DNA of 26,890 nucleotides from a virus: positions 1 through 26,890 of IMG/VR virus record IMGVR_UViG_3300021962_000537. One strand, 5' to 3'. Shown in pieces: positions 1,453-21,024 of this stretch. Both the position numbers and the translations under genes were made by a program. The number at the start of each line of letters is the position of its first letter. The first letter of the stretch is position 1. A model generated the notes under the pieces. That model was not told the DNA's origin. It was given only the letters and a program-made list of their open reading frames with translations, and searched no databases.

Positions 1453-2214
1453 ATGTTCCTAAAAAAGCCAACAATTTACATAGGTTACGACCCTACAGAA
1501 GAAATCTATTGCGAAGTACTTAAGAAGTCTATTGAGGCTAATACCAAAGATAGCTATAATATTGTACCTATTGTACAATCTGAGGTACGCAGGGCTGGCC
1601 TTTACTGGCGCAGCGGGGAACTAACAGAATCTGGTGTTGTAGATACTTTTGATCGTAAGCCCTTTTCCACAGAGTTTAGCTTTACACGTTTTCTAGCCCC
1701 TATGCTAAACCAGTATAGTGGGCTTGCTTTATTTATGGATTGTGATATGTATGTACGATCAGATATCACAGAAATCTTTGATACACATGGCTCCAATCGT
1801 AACGTAGCAATTAGCTGCGTAAAACACGACTATGCACCAGCAGAATCTACAAAGATGGGTGGTAAAGTTCAGACTGTGTATAACCGAAAGAACTGGTCTT
1901 CTTTTGTTTTGTGGAACTGTGACCATCCTAAAGTAAAAGAACTTACCACTGGTGACGTAAACACAAAGACCGGCTCATGGCTACATGGATTCTATTGGCT
2001 TGAATCAGAATTTATTGGTAATATTAAGCAAGAGTGGAACTGGCTTGATGGACATAGCGCAGAGAACATTGAACCTAAGAATGTTCACTTCACTACTGGT
2101 GGTCCTATCTATAAAGATTGGAAGCCTACCCGCGAAGTTGATGGTAAGTATGCTAAGGAGTGGAAGGACTTTTATTTAGATAAATTAAAGGTAAAGAAAA
2201 AGAAACATGATTAA
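1453..2214 (+). CDS. GT8-like glycosyltransferase
   Basis: This 253-aa protein starts with a short beta strand (TIYIGYDP) of the kind that opens a nucleotide-sugar-binding fold. It has a DxD motif, LFMDCDMYV with D96 and D98, which binds the metal and nucleotide sugar. Near the C-terminus is VHFTTGGP (H212), resembling the HFxG element that supplies a metal-binding His in GT8 glycosyltransferases. The C-terminus is a Lys run. Substrate and acceptor are unknown; plausible acceptors are host lipopolysaccharide, a virion protein or modified phage DNA. It is the first gene after the consensus promoter and overlaps the next gene, a second glycosyltransferase-type protein, by 8 bases. The pair probably acts on one pathway. 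Confidence 0.8.
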   Translation: MFLKKPTIYIGYDPTEEIYCEVLKKSIEANTKDSYNIVPIVQSEVRRAGLYWRSGELTESGVVDTFDRKPFSTEFSFTRFLAPMLNQYSGLALFMDCDMYVRSDITEIFDTHGSNRNVAISCVKHDYAPAESTKMGGKVQTVYNRKNWSSFVLWNCDHPKVKELTTGDVNTKTGSWLHGFYWLESEFIGNIKQEWNWLDGHSAENIEPKNVHFTTGGPIYKDWKPTREVDGKYAKEWKDFYLDKLKVKKKKHD

Positions 2215-3856
2215 TTTTGTAACTTCATTTAGCCCAGATGGCTATAAAACCTATGCCAAGGATATGCTCCTCTCAGTTATTGAGAACTGGAAGGACGATC
2301 TTAAACTAACAGCATACTACCACGACTTTACGGAAGATCTAATTGCTGATCTACCAAAGTCTTCTCAGATTGAATATCGTAATTTGAACGATGTTCAAGA
2401 TATGCTAGACTATCGTGATCGTATGAAGCTTTATGATGGCACGATGGGTGGTAAAACGCCTTACAATTGGCGTATGGATGCCATTAAGTGGTGCCATAAG
2501 GTCTATGCCATGACAGACTGTGCTTTTAAGCTTGGCGATGATATGGCAGATGCTGGCTGGCTAGTGTGGTTAGATGCAGATACAATTACAACAAAACCCC
2601 TGTCAGAAGAAAAGCTGCTAAAGATTTTTCCAGATAAAGCAGAACTTGTCTATCTTGGTCGAAAAGATGTTGACTACAGTGAGACTTCTTTCGTAGCTTT
2701 TAATATCAGTAGCGAATCACCTTACTGCCTACTTGGTGATCTTCGTGGCTGTTATGATATTGGTGAAGTTATTTCATATCGTGAGTGGCATGATGGCTTT
2801 ATCTTTGATCGTCTACTAAAGATTTACATTGCTCATGGATTACGTGCACATAATCTAACTCCTAACGTAGACGGACTAGCCGCCTTTGCACAGTCAGAAC
2901 TGTCTCAGTACATGACACACTTCAAAGGTAATCTCAAGAATGTACCAAAGGATGCTTTAAAGAATATACCAAAAGATAGAGTACCTATTGTTGTACGTCC
3001 AAAAGACTGTATGCCAAAAGACTATATTATCAATAATGTCAATCAAAACTTAAAGCTTATTAAAAATTGGGGTATTTCTAAATCGTGTAGGCCAAATCCA
3101 GAGCATGCAATCATTGTTTCTGCTGGCCCTTCTACAGACTTTCAAGAACTTAGGCGTGTTATAAAGCAAACAAATGGTGTTGTACTTAGTGTAAAGCATA
3201 GTTATCCTAAGCTTCTAAAAGAAAACATCCATCAGTGGGGTTGTATCATTCTTGATCCTCGTCCTATTGATGGTATATCAACACATGGTATTCTTCGTAA
3301 AGATCTGTTTGAGACAGTAGATTCAACTACTAACTTCTTTGTCGCCTCAATGACCGATCCTTCAGTTACTAAACATCTTATGGAACGAACCAAGAACATT
3401 CATGGCTGGCATGCATATTCAGATGCTGTTCGTGAAGCTACACAAAATCCAAAGATGTTTGAGATTTCCAGTGAAGCAAACATTCCAAAGGATACTACCT
3501 TTGTAACTGGTGGAACCTGTGCTGCAATGCGAGGCTTTGGTCTTATGCACATTCTAGGCTTCCGTAACTTTCATCTATTTGGCTTTGACTGTAATGTGAC
3601 AGGGCTTACAGACGATCAGAAGAAGGAAAGGCTAGACGATAAACCAAAGTACATTCCTGTTGAAACTAATGGTGAGAAGTTCTGGACTACAGGAGAACTT
3701 CTAGCTATGGCACAGGATTGTGAACGACTGTTTAACAACAAGACTATTGATGCTAATATCAAGCTATATGGTTCTGGTACACTGGTTTCTGAAGTATTCA
3801 AAAACTCTTTCCATGCCAATCTACCTTACTTCCTAGACTACTTTGAGAGTAAATAA
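2207..3856 (+). CDS. Two-domain protein: GT-A-like domain fused to a DUF115 (6-hydroxymethylpterin pyrophosphokinase-like) domain
   Basis: This is a 549-aa protein. The N-terminal third (about 1-230) looks like a GT-A glycosyltransferase, with WLDADT carrying a DxD at D123/D125. The C-terminal half opens with AIIVSAGPS (301-309), the nucleotide-binding turn typical of DUF115. This domain is found in archaeal MptE and in Maf-type flagellin glycosyltransferases. Further on come a TGGTCAAMRG segment and HLFGFDCNVTG, resembling the later DUF115 motifs. DUF115 proteins often transfer nonulosonic acids or other activated sugars. The fusion with a DxD domain and the 8-base overlap with the GT8-like gene suggest a two-step glycan assembly, but the acceptor cannot be read from the sequence. 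The stop overlaps the ATG of the terminase gene (TAATG). Confidence 0.75.
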   Translation: MINFVTSFSPDGYKTYAKDMLLSVIENWKDDLKLTAYYHDFTEDLIADLPKSSQIEYRNLNDVQDMLDYRDRMKLYDGTMGGKTPYNWRMDAIKWCHKVYAMTDCAFKLGDDMADAGWLVWLDADTITTKPLSEEKLLKIFPDKAELVYLGRKDVDYSETSFVAFNISSESPYCLLGDLRGCYDIGEVISYREWHDGFIFDRLLKIYIAHGLRAHNLTPNVDGLAAFAQSELSQYMTHFKGNLKNVPKDALKNIPKDRVPIVVRPKDCMPKDYIINNVNQNLKLIKNWGISKSCRPNPEHAIIVSAGPSTDFQELRRVIKQTNGVVLSVKHSYPKLLKENIHQWGCIILDPRPIDGISTHGILRKDLFETVDSTTNFFVASMTDPSVTKHLMERTKNIHGWHAYSDAVREATQNPKMFEISSEANIPKDTTFVTGGTCAAMRGFGLMHILGFRNFHLFGFDCNVTGLTDDQKKERLDDKPKYIPVETNGEKFWTTGELLAMAQDCERLFNNKTIDANIKLYGSGTLVSEVFKNSFHANLPYFLDYFESK

Positions 3857-4410
3857 TGGCTAAGAAACAATCTACACATGAGGGACTTTCTGAAAAGCAT
3901 GAGAAGTTTGCTCAAGCTTATGTAGTCTATCGTAATGCTACGGAAGCTGCAAAGGTAGCTGGTTATTCAGCACGATCTGCAACCAATCAGGGTTGTCGGC
4001 TTGCTAATGATGCCCGTATCAAGGAACGTATTGAGGAACTAGAGAAAGAACTAGAAACCAAGATTAACGTCATTGAGGAGATTGAGCAGCAGTATGTTGC
4101 AGCCAAACAGAACAACCATACCAACACTGCTCTTAAAGCACTAGAACTTCTTGCTAAAGTAAATACCAAACAAGAAGAAGTAATCCCCTCCTCTATTCAT
4201 GAACTAGAGGCTGATATTATTAAATATCTAGAAATTTTAGGTGAGGAAAGGGCAACAAGGATCTTTCTTCGTTGCTCTTGGTTTGCAGAAGAAGAAGAGG
4301 GGGATGCCGACAATCAAGCCGACAATCCCCCTCAAGATAGTGAAGAAGACCTAGAAACAGGTCTTTCCCCTTCTTCACTAGAAGATGTTAATTCTTCTGA
4401 CCAGCAATAA
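3856..4410 (+). CDS. terS: Terminase small subunit (Terminase_2 family)
   Basis: This 184-aa protein has the N-terminal helix-turn-helix pattern of small terminases: LSEKHEKFAQAYV, then NATEAAKVAGYS, then a segment with NDARIKERIEEL. A helical oligomerisation region follows, rich in Glu and Lys (about 60-120, with ALKALELLAKV). The C-terminal 50 residues are acidic and low complexity (EEEEGD, SEEDLE). Small terminase subunits recognise phage DNA and recruit the large subunit for packaging. The large subunit does not follow: the next gene is convergent, so the ATPase/nuclease gene must lie outside the window. The last 23 bases overlap the 3' end of the holin gene on the other strand, and two inverted repeats lie in the 3' part of the gene. 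Confidence 0.85.
   Translation: MAKKQSTHEGLSEKHEKFAQAYVVYRNATEAAKVAGYSARSATNQGCRLANDARIKERIEELEKELETKINVIEEIEQQYVAAKQNNHTNTALKALELLAKVNTKQEEVIPSSIHELEADIIKYLEILGEERATRIFLRCSWFAEEEEGDADNQADNPPQDSEEDLETGLSPSSLEDVNSSDQQ
4297..4333. terminator. GC-rich inverted repeat near the convergent junction, possible terminator for the - strand operon
   Basis: GAGGGGGAT (4297-4305) is perfectly complementary to ATCCCCCTC (4325-4333), with a 19-base loop that itself contains a 10-base direct repeat (GCCGACAATC at 4306-4315 and 4318-4327). Read on the - strand the hairpin is followed by TTCTTCTTCTGC, a pyrimidine-rich but imperfect U-tract. It lies about 55 bases beyond the end of the holin gene, where a stop signal for the long late operon would be expected. 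It is inside the terS coding sequence, so the repeat may instead be a coding coincidence. Confidence 0.4.
4339..4379. terminator. Strong bulged hairpin at the convergent gene ends
   Basis: AGTGAAG plus AAGACCT (4339-4352) pairs with AGGTCTT (4359-4365) and CTTCACT (4373-4379). This gives 14 base pairs around a 6-base loop with a single one-sided 7-base bulge (TCCCCTT). It sits just before the tail-to-tail overlap of terS (+) and holin (-). No clean U-run follows in either direction, so it could be a weak or factor-assisted bidirectional terminator, or an RNA-stabilising 3' structure. It overlaps the acidic C-terminal coding region of terS. Confidence 0.45.
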
Positions 4411-4912
4411 GCTTATTCTTTTCTGCACTACCGGCGCTGCTACCAAAGTAGTAAGACACTACAGTACTTGCAGTACCTCCTAGCCAGCCAATTGCAATGT
4501 TGACAAAGGCCATATCAACCTTTAAAGTCTGTGGTAGGAATGTTACAAGGCCAATGTAACCAAAGAAAGAAGCAAGTGTAATAAAGCCTAGAATGGCTGG
4601 CATCTTGTCTTTAGTGGACATTTCCCTTAGACGAGCAGAAGCACGATCATCTGCTGCAATCTTCTCCAGATCAATATCTAAAGCCTTCATCTGCACTTTG
4701 AAGTCAGCTTCTACCTTCTTAATTGAAGCAAGCTGTTCTGGCGTTGCAGATGCTAAGGCTTTTTCCATTTCACCGGATGAACCATCTGACTTACCTAGTA
4801 GGGCTTCGCTAAGTGCCTTAGCAGCCATGCCACCAAAAGGTCCACCAATAGCTGTGCCTAGTGTTGGTGCTACAACACCAAGAATATCTTTTGCAACTTT
4901 ACCTAGATCCAT
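4388..4912 (-). CDS. Holin (3-TM type)
   Basis: This 174-aa protein has a Gly/Ala-rich hydrophobic N-terminal segment (about 8-36), a charged linker rich in Lys, Glu and Asp (about 50-104), and two clear membrane segments at about 105-126 and 134-156. It ends in a short polar tail. The arrangement matches the 3-TM holin family seen in gene transfer agents and many proteobacterial phages. The holin permeabilises the inner membrane at the end of infection. It is the last gene of the - strand operon, 3 bases after the M15 endopeptidase gene, completing a lysis cassette. Its 3' end overlaps the convergent terS gene by 23 bases. Confidence 0.8.
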   Translation of the reverse strand: MDLGKVAKDILGVVAPTLGTAIGGPFGGMAAKALSEALLGKSDGSSGEMEKALASATPEQLASIKKVEADFKVQMKALDIDLEKIAADDRASARLREMSTKDKMPAILGFITLASFFGYIGLVTFLPQTLKVDMAFVNIAIGWLGGTASTVVSYYFGSSAGSAEKNKLIAGQKN

Positions 4913-4915
4913 AGT

Positions 4916-5302
4916 TTAATAACTCCATATTGTTGGTCTTGGACTTGAGGAACTATTCGTCATTGTGTCTAGATGAATGAACCTCTTGTCGTGTGGTCCT
5001 TTTTGTGATACACCAATACCTGTAAAGCCTAGCTTTAGTGCTAGATCAATGACACGATATGCGTCACTTCCAGACACAAGAATATCTACGGCTTTACCAT
5101 ATGTATGTGGTGAATTAGGTGCACCACCAACCTTCTCATTATGCTCTTTACTACGATATGCAGAAGATAGAAATATTGGTTTGTTAAAGGCTTCACGTAG
5201 CATAATTAGCTTTTCCATGAAGTCAGCATCCATGTCACACTGACCAGTACCTTTACACTTCAGTTCATCTTCTGTAAAATATTCCCAATTACTTTTTACC
5301 AC
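4916..5302 (-). CDS. M15-family peptidoglycan endopeptidase/carboxypeptidase (endolysin)
   Basis: This 128-aa single-domain protein has the M15 zinc site: SPHTYGKAVDI supplies H66 and D73 (SxHxxGxAxD pattern) and FIHLDT supplies H110. A preceding SAYR (47-50) is the conserved substrate-side Arg motif, and the RPTIWSY C-terminus is typical of phage M15A-like enzymes. It cleaves D-Ala-containing cross-links or stems of the cell wall. No signal peptide is visible, so export depends on the neighbouring holin. It overlaps the upstream spanin-like gene by 14 bases. Confidence 0.9.
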   Translation of the reverse strand: MVKSNWEYFTEDELKCKGTGQCDMDADFMEKLIMLREAFNKPIFLSSAYRSKEHNEKVGGAPNSPHTYGKAVDILVSGSDAYRVIDLALKLGFTGIGVSQKGPHDKRFIHLDTMTNSSSSPRPTIWSY

Positions 5303-5546
5303 TATCTAATACCCTATCCATAATTTTATCTAGCTTCATTTCCAGACGATCAAAGCGGTTCATAATCTTCTGAATATCTTTGTCTACGTCTACCTTAAGG
5401 GCATACTCCCGTGCCATCTCTTCTCTGGTAATAGAGATAAGTTTACGCACTTCGGCAATCTGTACGTTAACACCACGTACCCACCATACTGTGCCACCAG
5501 CAGCAACACTAAGCAATAGATTCCATAACATATTTACTTCTGGCAC
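5289..5546 (-). CDS. Small membrane-anchored coiled-coil protein, possible inner-membrane spanin (Rz-like)
   Basis: This 85-aa protein has one N-terminal membrane segment (about 7-24, WNLLLSVAAGGTVWWV) followed by a heptad-like charged region (about 28-80, KVDVDKDIQKIMNRFDRLEM). An N-in anchor with a periplasmic coiled coil is the plan of an i-spanin. The lysis-cassette location, overlapping the endolysin gene by 14 bases, supports that role. No nested or adjacent lipoprotein (o-spanin) was recognised, so the call is by architecture and position only. ATG codons at residues 1 and 6 are both possible starts. Confidence 0.5.
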   Translation of the reverse strand: MPEVNMLWNLLLSVAAGGTVWWVRGVNVQIAEVRKLISITREEMAREYALKVDVDKDIQKIMNRFDRLEMKLDKIMDRVLDSGKK

Positions 5547-13870: not shown

Positions 13871-14623
13871 TTAAACCTGTACTATGGTAGCAATTACACT
13901 TGGAGAATCTGGAATTGCAGGACTTGTAATAGAAGCAATAGTTTCTAAATATGCCTGTATTTGATCAGTTTCCCAATACAATTCTAAATAATCAGATGCA
14001 GACAAAGTTACTATAACATTGTAACATAGAATATTATGACCTTGAATACCGCCGTGGGTGGATGGAACAGTGGCTACACCAGCACTTCTTTGAATATTAA
14101 TCCCATTCTTTTTTACCCAAACTGAAATATCATGGTCTTGTGTATCAGAGTTACCTAGCTGTAAACTAAACTGAAAGTTATAAATACCGGCATAGTCAGG
14201 AACAATTTTAGACGTACTTACCAAAGAAAATCCATAGGAACCATCAACACTTGTATAAGTTACGGGATAGGCTACAGAAGTTGAAACTGCAATTTGATTT
14301 GTATCGTCGTGCAGGGCCATGTAATAGCCTTTTGCACCACCACCAGCATTAAAAGGAACCCAACCTACACTTGCATTAATAAATCCTTGAAACTGTGCTA
14401 ATGATGTAGAATAAGCTATATCACCAATAAGAGGACTACCAATATTAGATGTTGATGTAACAGTAAGAAATCTTTTAGATGGAGCAAGATCTACTTGTCT
14501 ATCCCTTTGCTCAAGGAGAAACTTCATTTGAGCAGAGTAATTAAGAATATCTTCGTATACCTGTCGTGTATCAACTTTAGTTACATCAGCATATACAGGT
14601 AATTCAGGATACAGTTGAGCCAT
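13871..14623 (-). CDS. Tail-associated protein with C1q/TNF-like jelly-roll domain
   Basis: In this 250-aa protein the N-terminal 50 residues are helical (VYEDILNYSAQMKFLLEQRD), suggesting an attachment or trimerisation part. The remainder is Ser/Thr/Val-rich beta structure. IVPDYAGIYNFQFSLQL near residue 145 resembles the strand that begins C1q-like jelly-roll domains, and ISVWVKKNG and LELYWETD look like later strands. The last residues (DSPSVIATIVQV) form a typical final strand. Such domains occur in phage receptor-binding and tail accessory proteins. It is immediately downstream of the gp10-like gene with a one-base TAATG overlap. The fold call is by pattern only. Confidence 0.5.
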   Translation of the reverse strand: MAQLYPELPVYADVTKVDTRQVYEDILNYSAQMKFLLEQRDRQVDLAPSKRFLTVTSTSNIGSPLIGDIAYSTSLAQFQGFINASVGWVPFNAGGGAKGYYMALHDDTNQIAVSTSVAYPVTYTSVDGSYGFSLVSTSKIVPDYAGIYNFQFSLQLGNSDTQDHDISVWVKKNGINIQRSAGVATVPSTHGGIQGHNILCYNVIVTLSASDYLELYWETDQIQAYLETIASITSPAIPDSPSVIATIVQV

Positions 14624-16491
14624 TATCTATCTCCATCAGGTTGAATAGCCAACCTCATTGTACCCCAACGCCAATTAATATGTTGATCAGATGTTGATAC
14701 ACGAATTGCTGCTTGTCTGCCCCTTGCACGAAGATCAATCTTTTGAGTACCAGCATTAATTATGTATGGTCCTTTTGTAATTGTAGGGCCAGCAGGATAA
14801 GACTGTGTTTCAATTGTAAACTTTAAACTACCTTCACTAATTGAAACGTCAGGAATAATCCTGTTCATAAACATAATCTTGTCGCCATCTTCAAGATCAA
14901 AGTCGCTTGACTCAAGATAAGATGTCAGGGGCTGACCATCACCGTCATAAACATCTTCTGGCTCATTGTCCCAGTAGTAAGAAGCGGCACTTACGTTTAC
15001 AGGGCCTGTAGTCATAGTATTACTAAATACTGTACGATCTTCAAAGGTTGTATAAAAAGAAGAACCATATACCCAATGATCTTCTTGTACGTTATAGATA
15101 ACATAAGCATTAGGTTCGTCAGAACCATCTTTTGGATACAGCCAAATAATTTCATTAAACTCTGCATTAGTACCAGCGTATACTTTATCCTTTTGAGACA
15201 TATTAAAGCTGTCATAAAGATAACGGCGGATTGTACAATTTAGACGTTCTACACGACCATTAAACCTATAAAAGTTATTGTCACTCATCCAATAAGATAC
15301 ACCGTCAACTGCAATAGCTGCGTGTGGCGCAATCAAGCCACAGTTAGCACCTAGCTGAGAGAAACTGAAAATAAATGGAGGACCAACGAATTGCATACCG
15401 TATAAAGCACGATCTGTCCATACATGCACAGCGTTTCGTGCACGTACACCACCGACAATTTCAGTACCATCAATAAGCTGATTTTCACCAGATGTTGAAC
15501 TAATTGATGGTGTCCAGTTAGTGTAGTCTTCTTGGTCTGCCCAACGAACTAACATTGGGTTAAAAATACTTGTGCCATATTCGTTAGCACCTAATGCAAT
15601 TACGTGACGATCATTAGGTGATACTACAATACTATTAATTTTAGTTGGGGAGGTGGCTACAATAGACGCACGAACTGGGTTAATACTTAAATTAGCATCC
15701 CAGTGAATAAGAGGACCACCACGACGAACAGTAAGAAGATCTTCACCCCAGTTATCCATAGACCACTGATTAGCTAAGAAGATAATGCCTGATTGTGTAG
15801 CTTGTTGGTTCCAAGCCCTAGCACCTGTAGTGGATACACCAGCATTGTAAACACCAGCGCCATAACCTAAACCTTGAATGTTATTAGTTTGTTCTGTAGG
15901 TAGAAGAAATCCAAAAGTACCACTACCCATATTTGTTTCTGTACTGGTAGCTACACTTGTAACACTAATGAAAAAGTTATTTAGTCCATTGACACTAACA
16001 ACTTGAAAAGTAGGGCCACCAAAGGAAGAAACAGCAAAGTCAGTAGCCCCACCGAAACCATTAATAGACGCATTTGTAATGTAAATCCAGTCACTTACTT
16101 CTGCCCCATGATTTGTAATACTTACTTCAATTAAAGGAGAACCAGCAGATGTATTCATATTACCGAGTACACCAGCTTCTACAGATACAGTAGATACTAT
16201 TGGAGTAACATCAAAATTATAATCGTTAAAGTATACATATAGACGTTGCTCTGTTCCTGAAGACATAAGCTTTTCTGTATTGTTATTGCTCCATGTTAAC
16301 AGATCACGGGCTATACCAATTAAAGGAGTATCATTATGCTTCTGATAACCTCTAAGATTTTCTGGCTTACCTTCTCTAAAACGTACACGATCACCATCAT
16401 ACCATTTACCCTCTTCGGCGTACTTGGTAGATTCCCGGTGAAATCCCGGTAAAAATCTAAGTCTGGTGAGTTTTGAAGCTGTGCTAGGCAT
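14623..16491 (-). CDS. P22 gp10-like tail hub / packaged-DNA stabilisation protein
   Basis: This 622-aa protein begins with SKLTRLRFLPGFHRESTKY, EGKWYDGDRVRFREGKPENL and SNNNTEKLMSSGTEQRLYVY. This N-terminal pattern, with Trp-Tyr-Asp and RFREGKPE, is common in marine-phage relatives of P22 gp10. The body is rich in beta strands and Trp/Asn (WADQEDYTNWTPS, GENQLIDGTEIVG, WTDRALYGMQFVGPP). In P22, gp10 sits below the gp4 ring in the neck and closes the channel after DNA packaging. The gp4-like gene is in the same operon (23490-24164). Both gene ends use one-base TAATG overlaps with neighbours. Confidence 0.7.
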   Translation of the reverse strand: MPSTASKLTRLRFLPGFHRESTKYAEEGKWYDGDRVRFREGKPENLRGYQKHNDTPLIGIARDLLTWSNNNTEKLMSSGTEQRLYVYFNDYNFDVTPIVSTVSVEAGVLGNMNTSAGSPLIEVSITNHGAEVSDWIYITNASINGFGGATDFAVSSFGGPTFQVVSVNGLNNFFISVTSVATSTETNMGSGTFGFLLPTEQTNNIQGLGYGAGVYNAGVSTTGARAWNQQATQSGIIFLANQWSMDNWGEDLLTVRRGGPLIHWDANLSINPVRASIVATSPTKINSIVVSPNDRHVIALGANEYGTSIFNPMLVRWADQEDYTNWTPSISSTSGENQLIDGTEIVGGVRARNAVHVWTDRALYGMQFVGPPFIFSFSQLGANCGLIAPHAAIAVDGVSYWMSDNNFYRFNGRVERLNCTIRRYLYDSFNMSQKDKVYAGTNAEFNEIIWLYPKDGSDEPNAYVIYNVQEDHWVYGSSFYTTFEDRTVFSNTMTTGPVNVSAASYYWDNEPEDVYDGDGQPLTSYLESSDFDLEDGDKIMFMNRIIPDVSISEGSLKFTIETQSYPAGPTITKGPYIINAGTQKIDLRARGRQAAIRVSTSDQHINWRWGTMRLAIQPDGDR

Positions 16492-17165
16492 TAGTATTTA
16501 TACCAAATATCGCCGTTTGAACCATCCGTTACTGAAGGATCTACAGCAGTTACGTACCGTGCACCATAAGCATTTTGTGCTTCAGTGCCAAATACACTGG
16601 CTGCAATAGAAGTTGTGATAATTGAAGAAGCACCAATGTTTGTAACAGAAACTGTTGTAGCATTAATGTCTGTAGCTGAAAGACTAGCAGCTATATCAAC
16701 TACAGAAGCTGTAATAGAAGTAGCTGTAAAAGTGTTAGCTGTAAAAGATGCTACAGAAGTAGCATCTTCAATTTGATAAATTTCTGTACCATTACAAGCT
16801 ACAAAAGTATTCCGAGACTGTGTTAGTGTAAGGCCAGAACCACCAACAGTCTTTAGAATTACTGCAAAGCTACCTGAAGTATTTTCACGAACAAAGTATG
16901 TTTTAGAAACAGATGGAAGTGTAATTGTAACATCTGCTGTTAGTGTACCAGAAAAATCTAGGGCTGCTGCACGGGATTGGTCTGGTGTACCGTCATTTGT
17001 AGTCAGTGCAATTGGCACACTACTTACTGAAACTACGGTATATCCAGCTACAGCATCGTCAACAAGATCAATAACATTCTGATTAAGGATAGTACCCCAT
17101 GAATTGGGATTCTCCCCATCACCCTGTTTTTCTAGCCTTACGCGGGTTGTATATGTACTAGCCAT
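16491..17165 (-). CDS. Tail fibre-type protein with virion-binding N-terminus and GDIWYKY C-terminus
   Basis: This 224-aa protein starts with TYTTRVRLEKQGDGENPNSW and GTILNQNVIDLVDDAV, an N-terminal pattern frequent in marine phage fibre or tail proteins. The middle has beta-rich Thr/Ser repeats (SFTANTFTATSITASVV, ATDINATTVSVT) consistent with a trimeric shaft. The C-terminal 33 residues, QNAYGAR ... DGSNGDIWYKY, closely match the C-terminus of the 630-aa fibre at 21045. It may be a short fibre or adaptor linked to the gp10-like hub encoded directly downstream. The stop overlaps the next ATG by one base. Confidence 0.65.
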   Translation of the reverse strand: MASTYTTRVRLEKQGDGENPNSWGTILNQNVIDLVDDAVAGYTVVSVSSVPIALTTNDGTPDQSRAAALDFSGTLTADVTITLPSVSKTYFVRENTSGSFAVILKTVGGSGLTLTQSRNTFVACNGTEIYQIEDATSVASFTANTFTATSITASVVDIAASLSATDINATTVSVTNIGASSIITTSIAASVFGTEAQNAYGARYVTAVDPSVTDGSNGDIWYKY

Positions 17166-17352
17166 TTATGTTTACCTCTTGTTGTCTAATGCAGTCTAAT
17201 TTATTTATGTTAAATAATGTCTTGTCGTTGTAAGCAGCTTCAACTCTAGCCTTATGTTTTTCACACTCATACACTGTTTGAAATGGCCCGGTTACAGACC
17301 TTTCTGTAATACCTAGTTGTACAAAAATCATAATAGATACTAGGTAAAACAT
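17158..17352 (-). CDS. Small exported or membrane-anchored protein
   Basis: With the start used here the protein is 64 aa, beginning MFYLVSIMIFVQLG, a hydrophobic N-terminus that reads as a signal peptide or anchor. A polar Cys-containing part follows (YECEKHKARVEAAY, KLDCIRQQEV) and could form one disulfide in the periplasm. An upstream ATG at 17385 would add 11 polar residues (MLSQQQKWQNK) but overlap the preceding gene by 32 bases. The ATG at 17352 lies one base after that gene's stop, like other junctions here, so I prefer it. Function is unknown. Position and size would also suit an outer-membrane spanin or superinfection factor, but no lipobox is visible. Confidence 0.5.
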   Translation of the reverse strand: MFYLVSIMIFVQLGITERSVTGPFQTVYECEKHKARVEAAYNDKTLFNINKLDCIRQQEVNING

Positions 17353-17353
17353 T

Positions 17354-17938
17354 TTATTCTGCCATTTCTGTTGCTGCGATAACAATTCTTGTTTTTACTG
17401 TTTCAAGATCTGAAGGTTTTTTATTAAAGCCTACAGACATATACCCATGAAAATGTCCTGCTGCTGGAGGAATAGATACTCTACACATGTATTTAACTTT
17501 AATGCTATCCATCCATTTACCAACCTTGCTTGAAGATTTAAATGGTGCACAGTAAACCTCACCACGAAGCATGGTCATTGCGGCATTATTTCTGTTATTC
17601 TGTCCACTATTAAATAGACTGGTAATATGACCTTCAACTGGAGTAAATCGTGTACCATTTCTATTTAATGCAAGAACAGTAACTCGTTGATTTTTGGAAG
17701 CATCTGCTTTATGGACAACTAACCCCAAAGCGTTAATATCTGATAAAAGTTTTTTAGAAATACTTTCTAATTTTGTAACTTCTAAAACATCAACATGGCC
17801 TGATCCAATAAACTTAGTAATTAACTTTTTATTATCATAAATAAGCCATCCAGCACCAACTAATAGACCAATAAGAATCAATGCGAATAGTTTAAATCCG
17901 CTATCAACCCATTTAATAAGATCTATTAGTTTATCCAT
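17354..17938 (-). CDS. Membrane-anchored protein with extracytoplasmic domain, function unknown
   Basis: This 194-aa protein has one membrane helix at about 16-34 (KLFALILIGLLVGAGWLIY). A soluble domain of about 150 residues follows, with an alternating beta/alpha pattern (LGLVVHKADASKNQRVTVL, MLRGEVYCAPF, YMCRVSIPPAAGHFHGYMSV). The overall pattern is reminiscent of a GAF-like sensory fold, but I could not confirm this. A Cys pair (VYCAP ... YMCRV) is present. It sits 3 bases downstream of a secreted solute-binding protein and is followed by another membrane-directed protein, so a joint role in the host envelope is plausible. Confidence 0.55.
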   Translation of the reverse strand: MDKLIDLIKWVDSGFKLFALILIGLLVGAGWLIYDNKKLITKFIGSGHVDVLEVTKLESISKKLLSDINALGLVVHKADASKNQRVTVLALNRNGTRFTPVEGHITSLFNSGQNNRNNAAMTMLRGEVYCAPFKSSSKVGKWMDSIKVKYMCRVSIPPAAGHFHGYMSVGFNKKPSDLETVKTRIVIAATEMAE

Positions 17939-17941
17939 CTT

Positions 17942-18970
17942 TTACCTTTTATTAAAAAATCTTTTAGACCATTCTTTATCTGTAAAGTCATTATCTTCTA
18001 AATAAGTTTTCCAAGATCTAAAAAGAAAAGTTTTATCCTTTTTATTAAAATAAATCTTTTCATCAAAATCTTTTCTAACCGGAAGTCTACCGTCAATTTT
18101 GTAAATTAGTTCTTGTCCTCGTTTACTTAGTAACCAATTTACAAATAGTTTAGCAGAATATTTAGAATTACTATTTTTAATTATTGCTACTGGAGTTACT
18201 GTTAAAGGTACTTCTTTAAAGCAATGTGCTTCAATTGGCATACCTTTTTTTTTATATCGTTCTACGTTATCTAAACCCATATAAAGAATAAAATCAAACT
18301 CACCCAAACTTAATAGTGAAAACATATTAGATAGACTACTTGTAGTTTTATAAGGCTTACTACTAAAAACCTTATCCATTTTATCTAAAACTTCTTTTTT
18401 AGAATACGCACTTAAAAAAGAACTGTACACTTTTTCCTTATTATTAACAGCTACTATTTTTTTAGTTTTAATTACATAATCTAAAAAGTCTGTTAAATTG
18501 TTAGGTAGTTCTTTGCTATTAATTTTTTTGGTGTGGTAAACAGAACACCAAGCTTTAATGGAATATGATGCCCATTTATTTTCAATACCTTTATGCTCTT
18601 CTTTAAGCATAGTATATTCGGGTAAAGAATTTAAACTTTCTAAATGTCCACCATTATAAAGAATATCTAAATAGTCTGAAAAACCAATAAAAACATCCAT
18701 ATCAAATTTTTTAGTTTGTCTAAAAGTTACAATACTTTTAATGTTTTGTTTTGTGCCTTTACGTTCATAATTAATATTTATATATGGATAGTCTTTTTTA
18801 AATTCTTTATACAAATCTTTCCATAATGTATTTTCGCGCCATCTTCCGTGAATAACTAATTCTGATTCTTTTTTAGCTTTATTTTCCCAATCTTTAATAG
18901 ATTCACTTTTTACTGGATAACTAAAAAAAATAAAGACGCATATAAATATATAAAATAGTTTATTTTTCAT
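17942..18970 (-). CDS. Secreted ABC-type solute-binding protein (Fe(III)/2-aminoethylphosphonate/polyamine-like class)
   Basis: This 342-aa protein has a clear Sec signal peptide: MKNK, a hydrophobic core (LFYIFICVFIFFSY) and a likely cut after VKS at residue 22. No lipobox Cys is at the cleavage site, so the product should be free in the periplasm. The rest follows the periplasmic binding-protein plan: FDMDVFIGFSDYLDILYNGG (about 89-108), FDFILYMGLDNVERYKKKG (about 225-243), AKLFVNWLLSKRGQELIYK (273-291) and GRLPVRKD (294-301). The last two are strongly characteristic of Fe(III)-type (FbpA/AfuA) substrate-binding proteins. The adjacent Tyr-Tyr iron ligands of FbpA are not seen, so the ligand may differ. 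The gene is strikingly AT- and Lys-rich compared with the flanking tail genes (18001-18060 has 10 G/C in 60). No permease or ATPase is encoded nearby. Such a gene inside a phage tail operon is unexpected. Confidence 0.85.
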   Translation of the reverse strand: MKNKLFYIFICVFIFFSYPVKSESIKDWENKAKKESELVIHGRWRENTLWKDLYKEFKKDYPYININYERKGTKQNIKSIVTFRQTKKFDMDVFIGFSDYLDILYNGGHLESLNSLPEYTMLKEEHKGIENKWASYSIKAWCSVYHTKKINSKELPNNLTDFLDYVIKTKKIVAVNNKEKVYSSFLSAYSKKEVLDKMDKVFSSKPYKTTSSLSNMFSLLSLGEFDFILYMGLDNVERYKKKGMPIEAHCFKEVPLTVTPVAIIKNSNSKYSAKLFVNWLLSKRGQELIYKIDGRLPVRKDFDEKIYFNKKDKTFLFRSWKTYLEDNDFTDKEWSKRFFNKR

Positions 18971-18979
18971 TGTTCTTTC

Positions 18980-19429
18980 TTATGGTTTAGTTGGTAGAAT
19001 TTTATCACTTACTTGCCCAACAAGAGATTTAATAAAGGTACGTTCTTCATCTGTAATTGCACTGATTGAAGTTGGATCATTTGGTACTACACGAAGATCA
19101 ATCCACTCAATAATCTTATCAAGAATTGGAGCCATCATTTCAATACGTTCAGTGCTTGAAGGAATAGATAGCCTACGCAATTCAAGTTTATCTTCATAGA
19201 TATCCTGTGTAGTTTTAGAAACTACTTTAGGACGAACTGTAACTTTGTTTCCTTCAATTACAGTTTCAATGCCATCAACTTTTTGAGTGGATGAATCATA
19301 AATAGCATCTACAGTATATTCATATAGATATAGTCCTTCAGCAGTTAGTTGATCTGCTGTAATGTCTCCAATAATTTCTTTTACTGAGGCAACATTACCA
19401 TTGTTGTCTAGTGTAGCATAGTAAGCCAT
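18980..19429 (-). CDS. Tail-cluster protein, possible fibre assembly factor
   Basis: In this 149-aa acidic soluble protein the first 75 residues look beta-rich (YYATLDNNGNVASVKEI, LYLYEYTVDAIYDS), in the style of small phage tail-accessory proteins. The C-terminal half is helical, with ELRRLSIPSSTERIEMMAP and a final helix (DEERTFIKSLVGQVSDKIL). This beta-then-helix plan and the neighbourhood of fibre genes recall tail-fibre assembly chaperones, but no family signature was recognised. It begins 15 bases after the QueC-like gene and ends 9 bases before the solute-binding protein gene. Confidence 0.45.
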   Translation of the reverse strand: MAYYATLDNNGNVASVKEIIGDITADQLTAEGLYLYEYTVDAIYDSSTQKVDGIETVIEGNKVTVRPKVVSKTTQDIYEDKLELRRLSIPSSTERIEMMAPILDKIIEWIDLRVVPNDPTSISAITDEERTFIKSLVGQVSDKILPTKP

Positions 19430-19444
19430 ATTAATTATTCCTTA

Positions 19445-20137
19445 TTATAGATACCAATTAGTTGCTTTACCGGGTAGCCCAACATAAGGACCACGCCTAG
19501 TTACTTTCATATAATAATCTAAAACTTTGTCAGATGTCCAACCATCATTAAGTTTTTCTTCACAGAAAGCTACATACTTGCATTTAAAAGTACAGCTACC
19601 ACATGGAGTTACCACACCATTTTCAATTGTACACTTTCCACACTTAAGAGTTATATTATATAGGTTTTTTGGTAAATTTGCAATAGCGTGTGGCTTACCT
19701 TGGTTTAATTCTACTAGTGGCATAAATACTTTATTTAAAAAGGTTTCTTTTAGCTGTTTAATGAAAGCATCGTTTCCTGTTGGCGATTTAACAACTTTAC
19801 GATTATCTTCTGTAGCCTTACCAATTAAAAACTTATCAAAGCCCTTTTCAAGATACTTTTGACCTTGTTTTAAAGCTTCTTTTGTCGAATAATATTTCAT
19901 ATCTTCTTTTGAAACTGCCACAATATTTTCAAATGTAAAATCTCGTACATTTGTTTTTAACCAGTTAACTATATTTTGTGAAAATGTTTTTTCTAGTGAA
20001 GCTGAATTTATTTCAGGTGTAAGTTCAGTAAAATCAACATGAAAAGCTGTAATCTCGTCTTGTGTTTCAGACAAAGTTTTATAAAGTAGATAAGTGCTAT
20101 CTACACCGCCAGTAATTGAAATACATGTCTTTGTCAT
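19445..20137 (-). CDS. QueC-like N-type ATP pyrophosphatase (PP-loop) with Cys cluster
   Basis: This 230-aa protein starts with a PP-loop, SITGGVDSTYLLY (T9-G10-G11-V12-D13-S14), a variant of SGGxDS with Thr for the first Ser. FHVDFTELTPE (33-41) fits the second strand of the adenylation fold. The C-terminal third has a cysteine cluster C166, C169, C179, C182, C186 and C192 (CGKC ... PCGSCTFKC), very like the zinc site of QueC, which converts carboxy-deazaguanine to preQ0 with ATP and ammonia. Phage QueC homologues usually serve deazaguanine DNA modification, but no folE, queD, queE or transglycosylase (DpdA/TGT) gene is in the window. It lies directly after the glycine-rich adhesin gene with a one-base TAATG overlap. 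A different amide- or nitrile-forming role on another substrate is possible. Confidence 0.75.
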   Translation of the reverse strand: MTKTCISITGGVDSTYLLYKTLSETQDEITAFHVDFTELTPEINSASLEKTFSQNIVNWLKTNVRDFTFENIVAVSKEDMKYYSTKEALKQGQKYLEKGFDKFLIGKATEDNRKVVKSPTGNDAFIKQLKETFLNKVFMPLVELNQGKPHAIANLPKNLYNITLKCGKCTIENGVVTPCGSCTFKCKYVAFCEEKLNDGWTSDKVLDYYMKVTRRGPYVGLPGKATNWYL

Positions 20138-21024
20138 TATGATACCGCACCTTTAACATTAGGATCAGTAGAACCACTTACCCAAGTAACAGAGTTTCCA
20201 TTTAGATTGATTGCTTTGCCAGCAGCACCACCGGCACCACCGGGAAATGCTGCATCAAAAGTTCCACCCGCATTGCCAGCAGCACCGGGATTTCCTCCCG
20301 TTCCACCAGCACCAGCGGTATAAGGACTATCAAAACCACCAGCCCCACCAGCACCACCGGCAGAGGTTGTACCAGCAGAACCAGCAGAACCGGGGGCTGC
20401 TGAACTACCACCCGCACCTCCTGTACCTACGGCATTACCGGCACCACCACCACCGCCGCCACCACCAGCCGTATAGTCATTTTTACCAACACTCTCATTC
20501 AAGCAGCCACCGCCGCCACCACCACCACCGCCACCCCAAATATAACCAGAGCCATTAGTAATAGTTGTAGGGCAAGTAATATTCATTGCATTGCCAGCGG
20601 CACTACCGGCACTACCACCTTGTGGTGGATTTGGAGCGTCGTTGCCACCTTTTCCACCGGCACCGCCAGCACCTTCAATTGTTCCTAAATTAATTAAATT
20701 AACAGTACAAGTGCCGGGTATAGCGCCAAAGGTAAAAGCAGGACTGCCGGTGCTAGATGAATTAATAACAATGGAAGAATTAACAGTACAATTAATAGTA
20801 ACCGCAGAAGTGCCATCATAACCAGCAGCCACAGCAGCAGTATAAAGGTTAAAGTTTGTCTGATTTGTAGACACAGTTACATTGATTGCGGAGGTAAAAA
20901 ATTCACGCCAAACACCACCAGACTTAATATATCCATTGGTTGCACTTCTCCAAACCCCAGAAGCTTTTACATAAAGCCCTGTAATAGTTCTCCAAGCACC
21001 ACTGTCTTTAACTGATAATGTCAT
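20137..21024 (-). CDS. Glycine-rich receptor-binding adhesin / tail tip protein
   Basis: In this 295-aa protein the N-terminal 45 residues carry three tandem units with VK/IK ... GxW-R (KDSGAWRTITG, KASGVWRSATNG, KSGGVWREF), a module known from phage tail proteins. Residues about 115-280 are extremely Gly/Ala/Ser-rich with uninterrupted Gly runs, and with GGAGG, GSAGSAG and GNAGG repeats split by short non-Gly loops (CLNESVGKNDYT, FDSPYTAG). This layout resembles polyglycine-II adhesins such as Gp38 of T-even-like Salmonella phage S16, where loops between Gly helices contact the receptor. Local base composition is GC-rich, opposite to the surrounding genes. It probably caps the fibre encoded directly upstream. 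Confidence 0.7.
   Translation of the reverse strand: MTLSVKDSGAWRTITGLYVKASGVWRSATNGYIKSGGVWREFFTSAINVTVSTNQTNFNLYTAAVAAGYDGTSAVTINCTVNSSIVINSSSTGSPAFTFGAIPGTCTVNLINLGTIEGAGGAGGKGGNDAPNPPQGGSAGSAAGNAMNITCPTTITNGSGYIWGGGGGGGGGGCLNESVGKNDYTAGGGGGGGGAGNAVGTGGAGGSSAAPGSAGSAGTTSAGGAGGAGGFDSPYTAGAGGTGGNPGAAGNAGGTFDAAFPGGAGGAAGKAINLNGNSVTWVSGSTDPNVKGAVS

Follow-up and report, generated by a model that had tools for sequence, protein, structure and literature searches.

A predicted secreted solute-binding protein gene in the tail region of a phage, coupled to a lysis-cassette-family gene

The solute-binding protein gene and its neighbours

The DNA analysed here (the window) is a 26,890-base IMG/VR record of a tailed, water-borne phage, related through its stabilization protein (29-35% identity) to Pelagibacter phages HTVC023P and HTVC027P, Roseobacter phage CRP-901 and lake phage DSL-LC04. 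On the minus strand, at 17942-18970, it contains an ORF encoding a 342-amino-acid-residue solute-binding protein (SBP). As an earlier note on this DNA had claimed, the ORF is complete and intact at exactly this location: it starts with ATG, has no internal stop codon, and a frame of such length would stay open by chance with a probability of about 3e-16 at the local base composition. The gene is embedded among viral genes, with phage structural genes on either side, away from the contig ends.

The SBP gene is co-directional with its neighbours and, as had been described, only a few bases from them (9 nt upstream and 3 nt downstream). Its ribosome-site-like stretch, AAGAAAG (18975-18981, minus strand), overlaps the stop codon of the upstream gene (TAAGAAAG). 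Likewise, AAAAGG (17945-17950, minus strand) forms the last two SBP codons and a ribosome-site-like stretch of the next gene, g194, whose ATG (17936-17938) lies 3 nt past the SBP stop; the junction reads AAAAGG TAA AAG ATG. The genes named below are also on the minus strand. The upstream neighbour, g149 (18980-19429, 149 aa), matched no family in Pfam and phrog comparisons. Beyond it lie a PP-loop/QueC-like ATPase (19445-20137), with relatives in sister phages L014-L017 and L023, and a Gp38-like tail fibre adhesin (20137-21024), both in a zone of variable cargo. On the other side are g194 (17354-17938), the small gene g75 (17158-17352), a tail-fibre-type protein at the lower edge of the cargo zone (16491-17165) and a virion structural or "stabilization" protein (14623-16491; phrog_3287, 1e-79), which served as the marker for sister phages. 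A separate lysis cassette at 4388-5546 encodes a holin-like protein, an M15 peptidase and a small spanin-like protein. The placement "between fibre-type genes" is therefore true only of the wider surroundings: the genes directly next to SBP encode the unmatched 149-aa protein and a membrane protein of a lysis-cassette family. No transporter gene was found among the proteins scanned in this 26,890-base record, which is only part of the phage, in agreement with the earlier note.

Profile searches against the SBP families placed the protein in the SBP_bac_6/1/8 clan, with three Pfam families above their cut-offs: SBP_bac_6 (44 bits; cut-off 24.6), SBP_bac_1 (36 bits; cut-off 26) and SBP_bac_8 (34.5 bits; cut-off 27). 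These matches and the fold of the model (see below) bear out the proposed identity. A phage protein family, phrog_22867, also matched it (1.5e-14) and may include viral SBPs of the same kind. Residues 1-22 (18905-18970, minus strand) form a probable signal peptide: the N-terminus, MKNKLFYIFICVFIFFSYPVKS/E, read by eye, has a charged n-region, a hydrophobic h-region and a signal-peptidase-I-like site, V-K-S, with no lipobox in it. Hydropathy peaks at residue 5 and the model has a helix over residues 2-16. The clean export-type N-terminus of the earlier description is thus upheld as a prediction.

Like SBP, the two genes that follow it have hydrophobic, export-type N-termini, and the three are consecutive. 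The product of g194 is a predicted membrane protein with one N-terminal TM segment and an outer domain with two invariant Cys (phrog_31287). It has 211 relatives in IMG/VR, of which 80 were fetched. A lysozyme or M15 gene was nearby, by similarity, in 52 of the 66 loci with 2 kb of downstream sequence; in most of the others a muramidase-like ORF and a holin-like ORF, read by eye, follow. In Edwardsiella phages GF-2 and Edno5 the relative occupies the holin slot, flanked by the Q antiterminator and, directly after it, the lysozyme; the Vibrio phage IKEMa6-1 relative has the same slot, directly before the lysozyme and overlapping its start. Both Cys are invariant in 75/75 family sequences. Because its relatives adjoin endolysin genes, g194 is assigned, from this context, to a large phage family that stands almost always in lysis cassettes, and the earlier description of 17354-17938 as a fibre gene does not hold. 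An SBP gene was found beside none of the 80 other loci read.

The start of g75 called mechanically (17385) is too early; it was re-set to the ATG at 17350-17352, which comes after the g194 stop. The protein has a hydrophobic N-terminus and two Cys, and the gene is kept in most sister phages just before a fibre-type gene. In the window, L008 and L061, a g194-family gene in the tail region is followed by g75, and the window pair lies apart from the other lysis genes at 4388-5546. More widely (L061-L140), members of the g194 family are often accompanied by a small secreted protein with two Cys, for example at L114:4907-5191. From the C-terminal pattern, homology of g194 and g75 to phage T4 T and RI was suspected, and profile comparisons did not support it: Pfam Phage_holin_T (PF11031) matched neither g194 nor its relatives while scoring 395 bits on T4 T itself, and hhalign of the g194 family against holin T gave a probability of 8-10%. 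In L121 (1-2604), which has the same TerS-GTb-GTa-2OG block as the window, the g194 relative is beside TerS and near M15, while the window copy is in the tail zone; the gene has therefore moved. The two adjoining genes at 1453-3856 of the window, between the 2OG-Fe(II) oxygenase and the terminase small subunit, are either without assigned function or glycosyltransferase-like, and their order is kept in L121.

Predicted fold and candidate ligands

A single-sequence model of SBP was poor (pLDDT 37.5) and was replaced by one built from a 9-row alignment (A4) of SBP and eight bacterial relatives taken from genome contigs. The resulting model (pLDDT 81.6, pTM 0.81) is two-lobed, with the SBP fold over residues 24-340. 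Foldseek matched it to solved SBPs with E down to 3e-18. Among the 50 SBP entries listed by VIA-align, Z was 24 to 29, with 29 for the metal-citrate binder MctA, 26-27 for the ferric binders HitA, FbpA and FutA (24-27 over ferric-binding proteins) and 24 for the hexose-phosphate binder AfuA. Structure prediction thus gave a confident and, as a model, secure fold; the ligand cannot be read from it.

The earlier note had read the C-terminal signatures AKLFVNWLLSKRGQ (residues 273-286) and GRLPVRKD (residues 294-301) as Fe(III)-class. Both are present, and the label is not tenable, because the motifs are carried across the SBP family, including non-iron binders: the C-terminal motifs are common to AfuA, VcA0625 and P5PA, and the stretch AKLF..LS..Q also occurs in AfuA (hexose phosphate) and P5PA (pyridoxal phosphate). 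The note was right that the FbpA-like Tyr-Tyr pair is missing. In direct alignment with HitA, LINNYYWYTLKKEKG lies opposite LYMGLDNVERYKKKG, and the iron-binding Y195/Y196 fall on L233/D234. A role in acquiring iron, or in adsorption of the "Ferrojan horse" kind, that depends on FbpA-like Fe(III) binding is consequently highly improbable: the model does have FbpA, HitA and FutA among its closest folds, but the tyrosines are replaced and the Z values are comparable for the non-iron binders MctA and AfuA. Free Fe(III), coordinated as in FbpA, is probably not the ligand. A profile of SBP and its relatives, dominated by the relatives, scored the non-iron binders AfuA, VcA0625 and P5PA highest. Since the surrounding family comprises AfuA, PhnS-like proteins, P5PA and MctA, small phosphorylated or carboxylated compounds are, by analogy, the more likely ligands. 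Against the NCBIfam 2-aminoethylphosphonate SBP model phnS2 (TIGR03261), SBP scored 29.1 bits, far under the equivalog cut-off of 392.75.

Relatives, origin and the cargo zone

No relative of SBP was found by tblastn in 50,697 phage records, and none was confirmed in IMG/VR by scans with patterns from SBP or its family, which rely on short conserved patterns and may miss relatives. Two motif-pattern matches in IMG/VR (L029 and L030) were judged to be chance. In the bacterial genomes searched, relatives had 16-28% identity and none exceeded about 28%; one bacterial search whose result was empty lacked a positive control at the cut-off used and counts as weak. A recognisable close bacterial source, which an auxiliary gene would be expected to have, was not found in these searches. 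Several of the bacterial relatives adjoin permease and ATPase genes (L038, L041, L043; L033-L037). In a maximum-likelihood tree with bacterial homologues, an analysis the earlier note had proposed, the SBP branch was the longest (2.24), and no sister or clade had support. Tracing its source by phylogeny did not work, the branch being long and compositionally odd.

The overall GC content of the gene drops to 25%, because the protein is rich in Lys, Asn and Ile (lysine 15%, FYMINK residues 44%). GC3 is 0.146, close to 0.148 in the 149-aa gene, 0.154 in the big fibre gene, 0.170 in g224 and 0.180 in g194. The low GC was therefore dismissed as evidence of recent transfer, and the match in GC3 indicates that the gene is settled in the phage. 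We read it as a long resident of phages or a descendant from an unsampled AT-rich host, not as a recent graft. The same figures bear on an assembly chimera with host DNA, to which the fall in overall GC and the occurrence of the gene in a single contig might point. GC3 equal to that of the neighbours, ribosome sites that overlap genes at both junctions (unlikely to arise from a chimera) and the failure to find a close bacterial source make it most improbable; matching GC3 and the overlapping ribosome sites answer the objection in part, and they uphold the view that SBP is phage-borne.

Twelve sister phages were read over the whole interval from the fibre gene to the stabilization protein (L007, L009, L011-L013, L016, L019, L021, L022, L024-L026), and SBP was absent from this interval in 12/12. 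Searched with a profile, 16 sister records, taken whole, gave no SBP either, and this profile did detect the window and the bacterial controls. The interval is a cargo zone whose gene content shifts between sister groups; it holds genes for fibres and adhesins, genes resembling tail-assembly genes and, in L014-L017 and L023, a PP-loop gene like that of the window. The PP-loop (QueC/LarE-like) ATPase lies within the tail-fibre zone of several sisters (19445-20137 in the window; L014:205-1005; L016:6516-7511). An AT-rich gene (27% GC, 101 aa) with a signal-peptide-like start also occurs there, at L014:1002-1307 and L015:5441-5746, and secreted cargo may be recurrent in the zone.

Such turnover, with SBP seen once, would suit hitchhiking cargo, captured in a hypervariable zone, with a selected role that is slight or absent. 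Its 342-codon frame is intact, however, with the predicted fold retained, GC3 is fully adjusted and both junctions are tightly coupled, and we consider mere hitchhiking unlikely.

Possible roles and comparison with known systems

We favour, tentatively and at somewhat less than an even chance, a phage-adapted secreted periplasmic SBP that is made late in infection and feeds an importer of the host, as an auxiliary metabolic gene like phage PstS. What the analysis shows is an intact frame, located in a phage, with the SBP fold in a confident model, an export-type N-terminus and coupling to the gene that follows. From these, SBP would be expressed late from the tail-gene transcript, exported to the periplasm by the host Sec system, close around a small solute and hand it to the resident ABC importer of the infected cell. 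We rate this role most likely; phage PstS sets a precedent, and several bacterial relatives adjoin permease and ATPase genes. Searches of public viral data have yielded 42 phage pstS genes, of which 31 are marine and one is experimentally validated (PMC10987575). Some points weigh against importer feeding. It is doubtful that SBP could dock on any particular host permease, since bacterial identity does not exceed about 28% and the 2.24 branch is the longest in the tree. A tail-region gene is probably expressed late, when metabolic feeding helps less, and absence from all 12 sister intervals counts against it as well.

The coupling to g194 allows a different role, in which SBP acts in the periplasm on g194 so that lysis comes earlier or later in response to solute level or a different periplasmic signal. 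The g194 start 3 nt past the SBP stop, with its ribosome site inside the SBP end, the lysozyme or M15 genes near most evaluable relatives, their holin-slot position in GF-2, Edno5 and IKEMa6-1, and three consecutive genes whose products all apparently face the periplasm are consistent with it. There is also a functional parallel in T4, whose secreted antiholin RI acts on the periplasmic domain of holin T: RI is periplasmic, its signal peptide is cleaved, and it binds T (PMC8385771, PMC11413866). Conservation does not support lysis control, however, with no SBP at the other 80 g194 loci; g194 is not demonstrably a T holin, the window has a second holin-endolysin set at 4388-5546, and adjacency may reflect a shared transcript only. 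Lysis timing by SBP is therefore a doubtful though serious possibility. Its more specific form, a nutrient-binding protein turned periplasmic sensor whose loaded or empty state acts on g194, so that the phage reads host nutrients or the outside before lysis, is quite unlikely. Lysis control nevertheless fits better than a virion part or adhesin, with SBP in the tail tip or binding an envelope receptor. The gene order among tail-fibre genes would suit the latter, but with a cleavable signal peptide SBP would leave the cytoplasm, which is where virions assemble, it carries no fused structural domain, and its direct coupling is to a lysis-family gene, not to a fibre gene; we hold a virion role to be very unlikely.

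The binding proteins known from phages are for the most part phosphate PstS. If importer feeding is true, a wider range of nutrients would be imported with phage help; if lysis control is true, this would be the first solute-sensing control of lysis. The large unnamed lysis-cassette family of g194, with its 211 viral relatives, merits a name. Phage-borne SBPs as such are already known, and at least one phage protein family, phrog_22867, is related to this one; by sequence comparison, an SBP of this family, divergence and neighbour was not found in the databases searched. That SBP has been seen only once is the chief weakness here.

Like T and RI of T4, g194 and SBP would pair a membrane protein having a large periplasmic domain with a secreted partner, and t adjoins tail-fibre genes. 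However, neither g194 and T nor g75 and RI have a significant sequence relation, and RI (97 aa) is unrelated in size and fold to the 342-aa SBP. Bug-type (tripartite tricarboxylate) SBPs of uncultured Caudovirales, found as BFVD matches, are already recorded phage proteins, but they are a separate SBP family with TM-scores of only about 0.4 to our model. FbpA, HitA and FutA share the fold of SBP but not its residues at the iron-ligand Tyr pair. The best profile matches of the SBP alignment, AfuA, VcA0625, P5PA and PhnS-like proteins, are alike in fold and C-terminal motifs and differ in sequence (about 18-27% identity). Phage PstS, of cyanophages and other marine phages, is like SBP a secreted binding protein carried without a permease. 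PstS belongs to an SBP family other than the SBP_bac_6-like one; here, in contrast, the protein is SBP_bac_6-like, without a close bacterial source, and coupled to a lysis-family gene.
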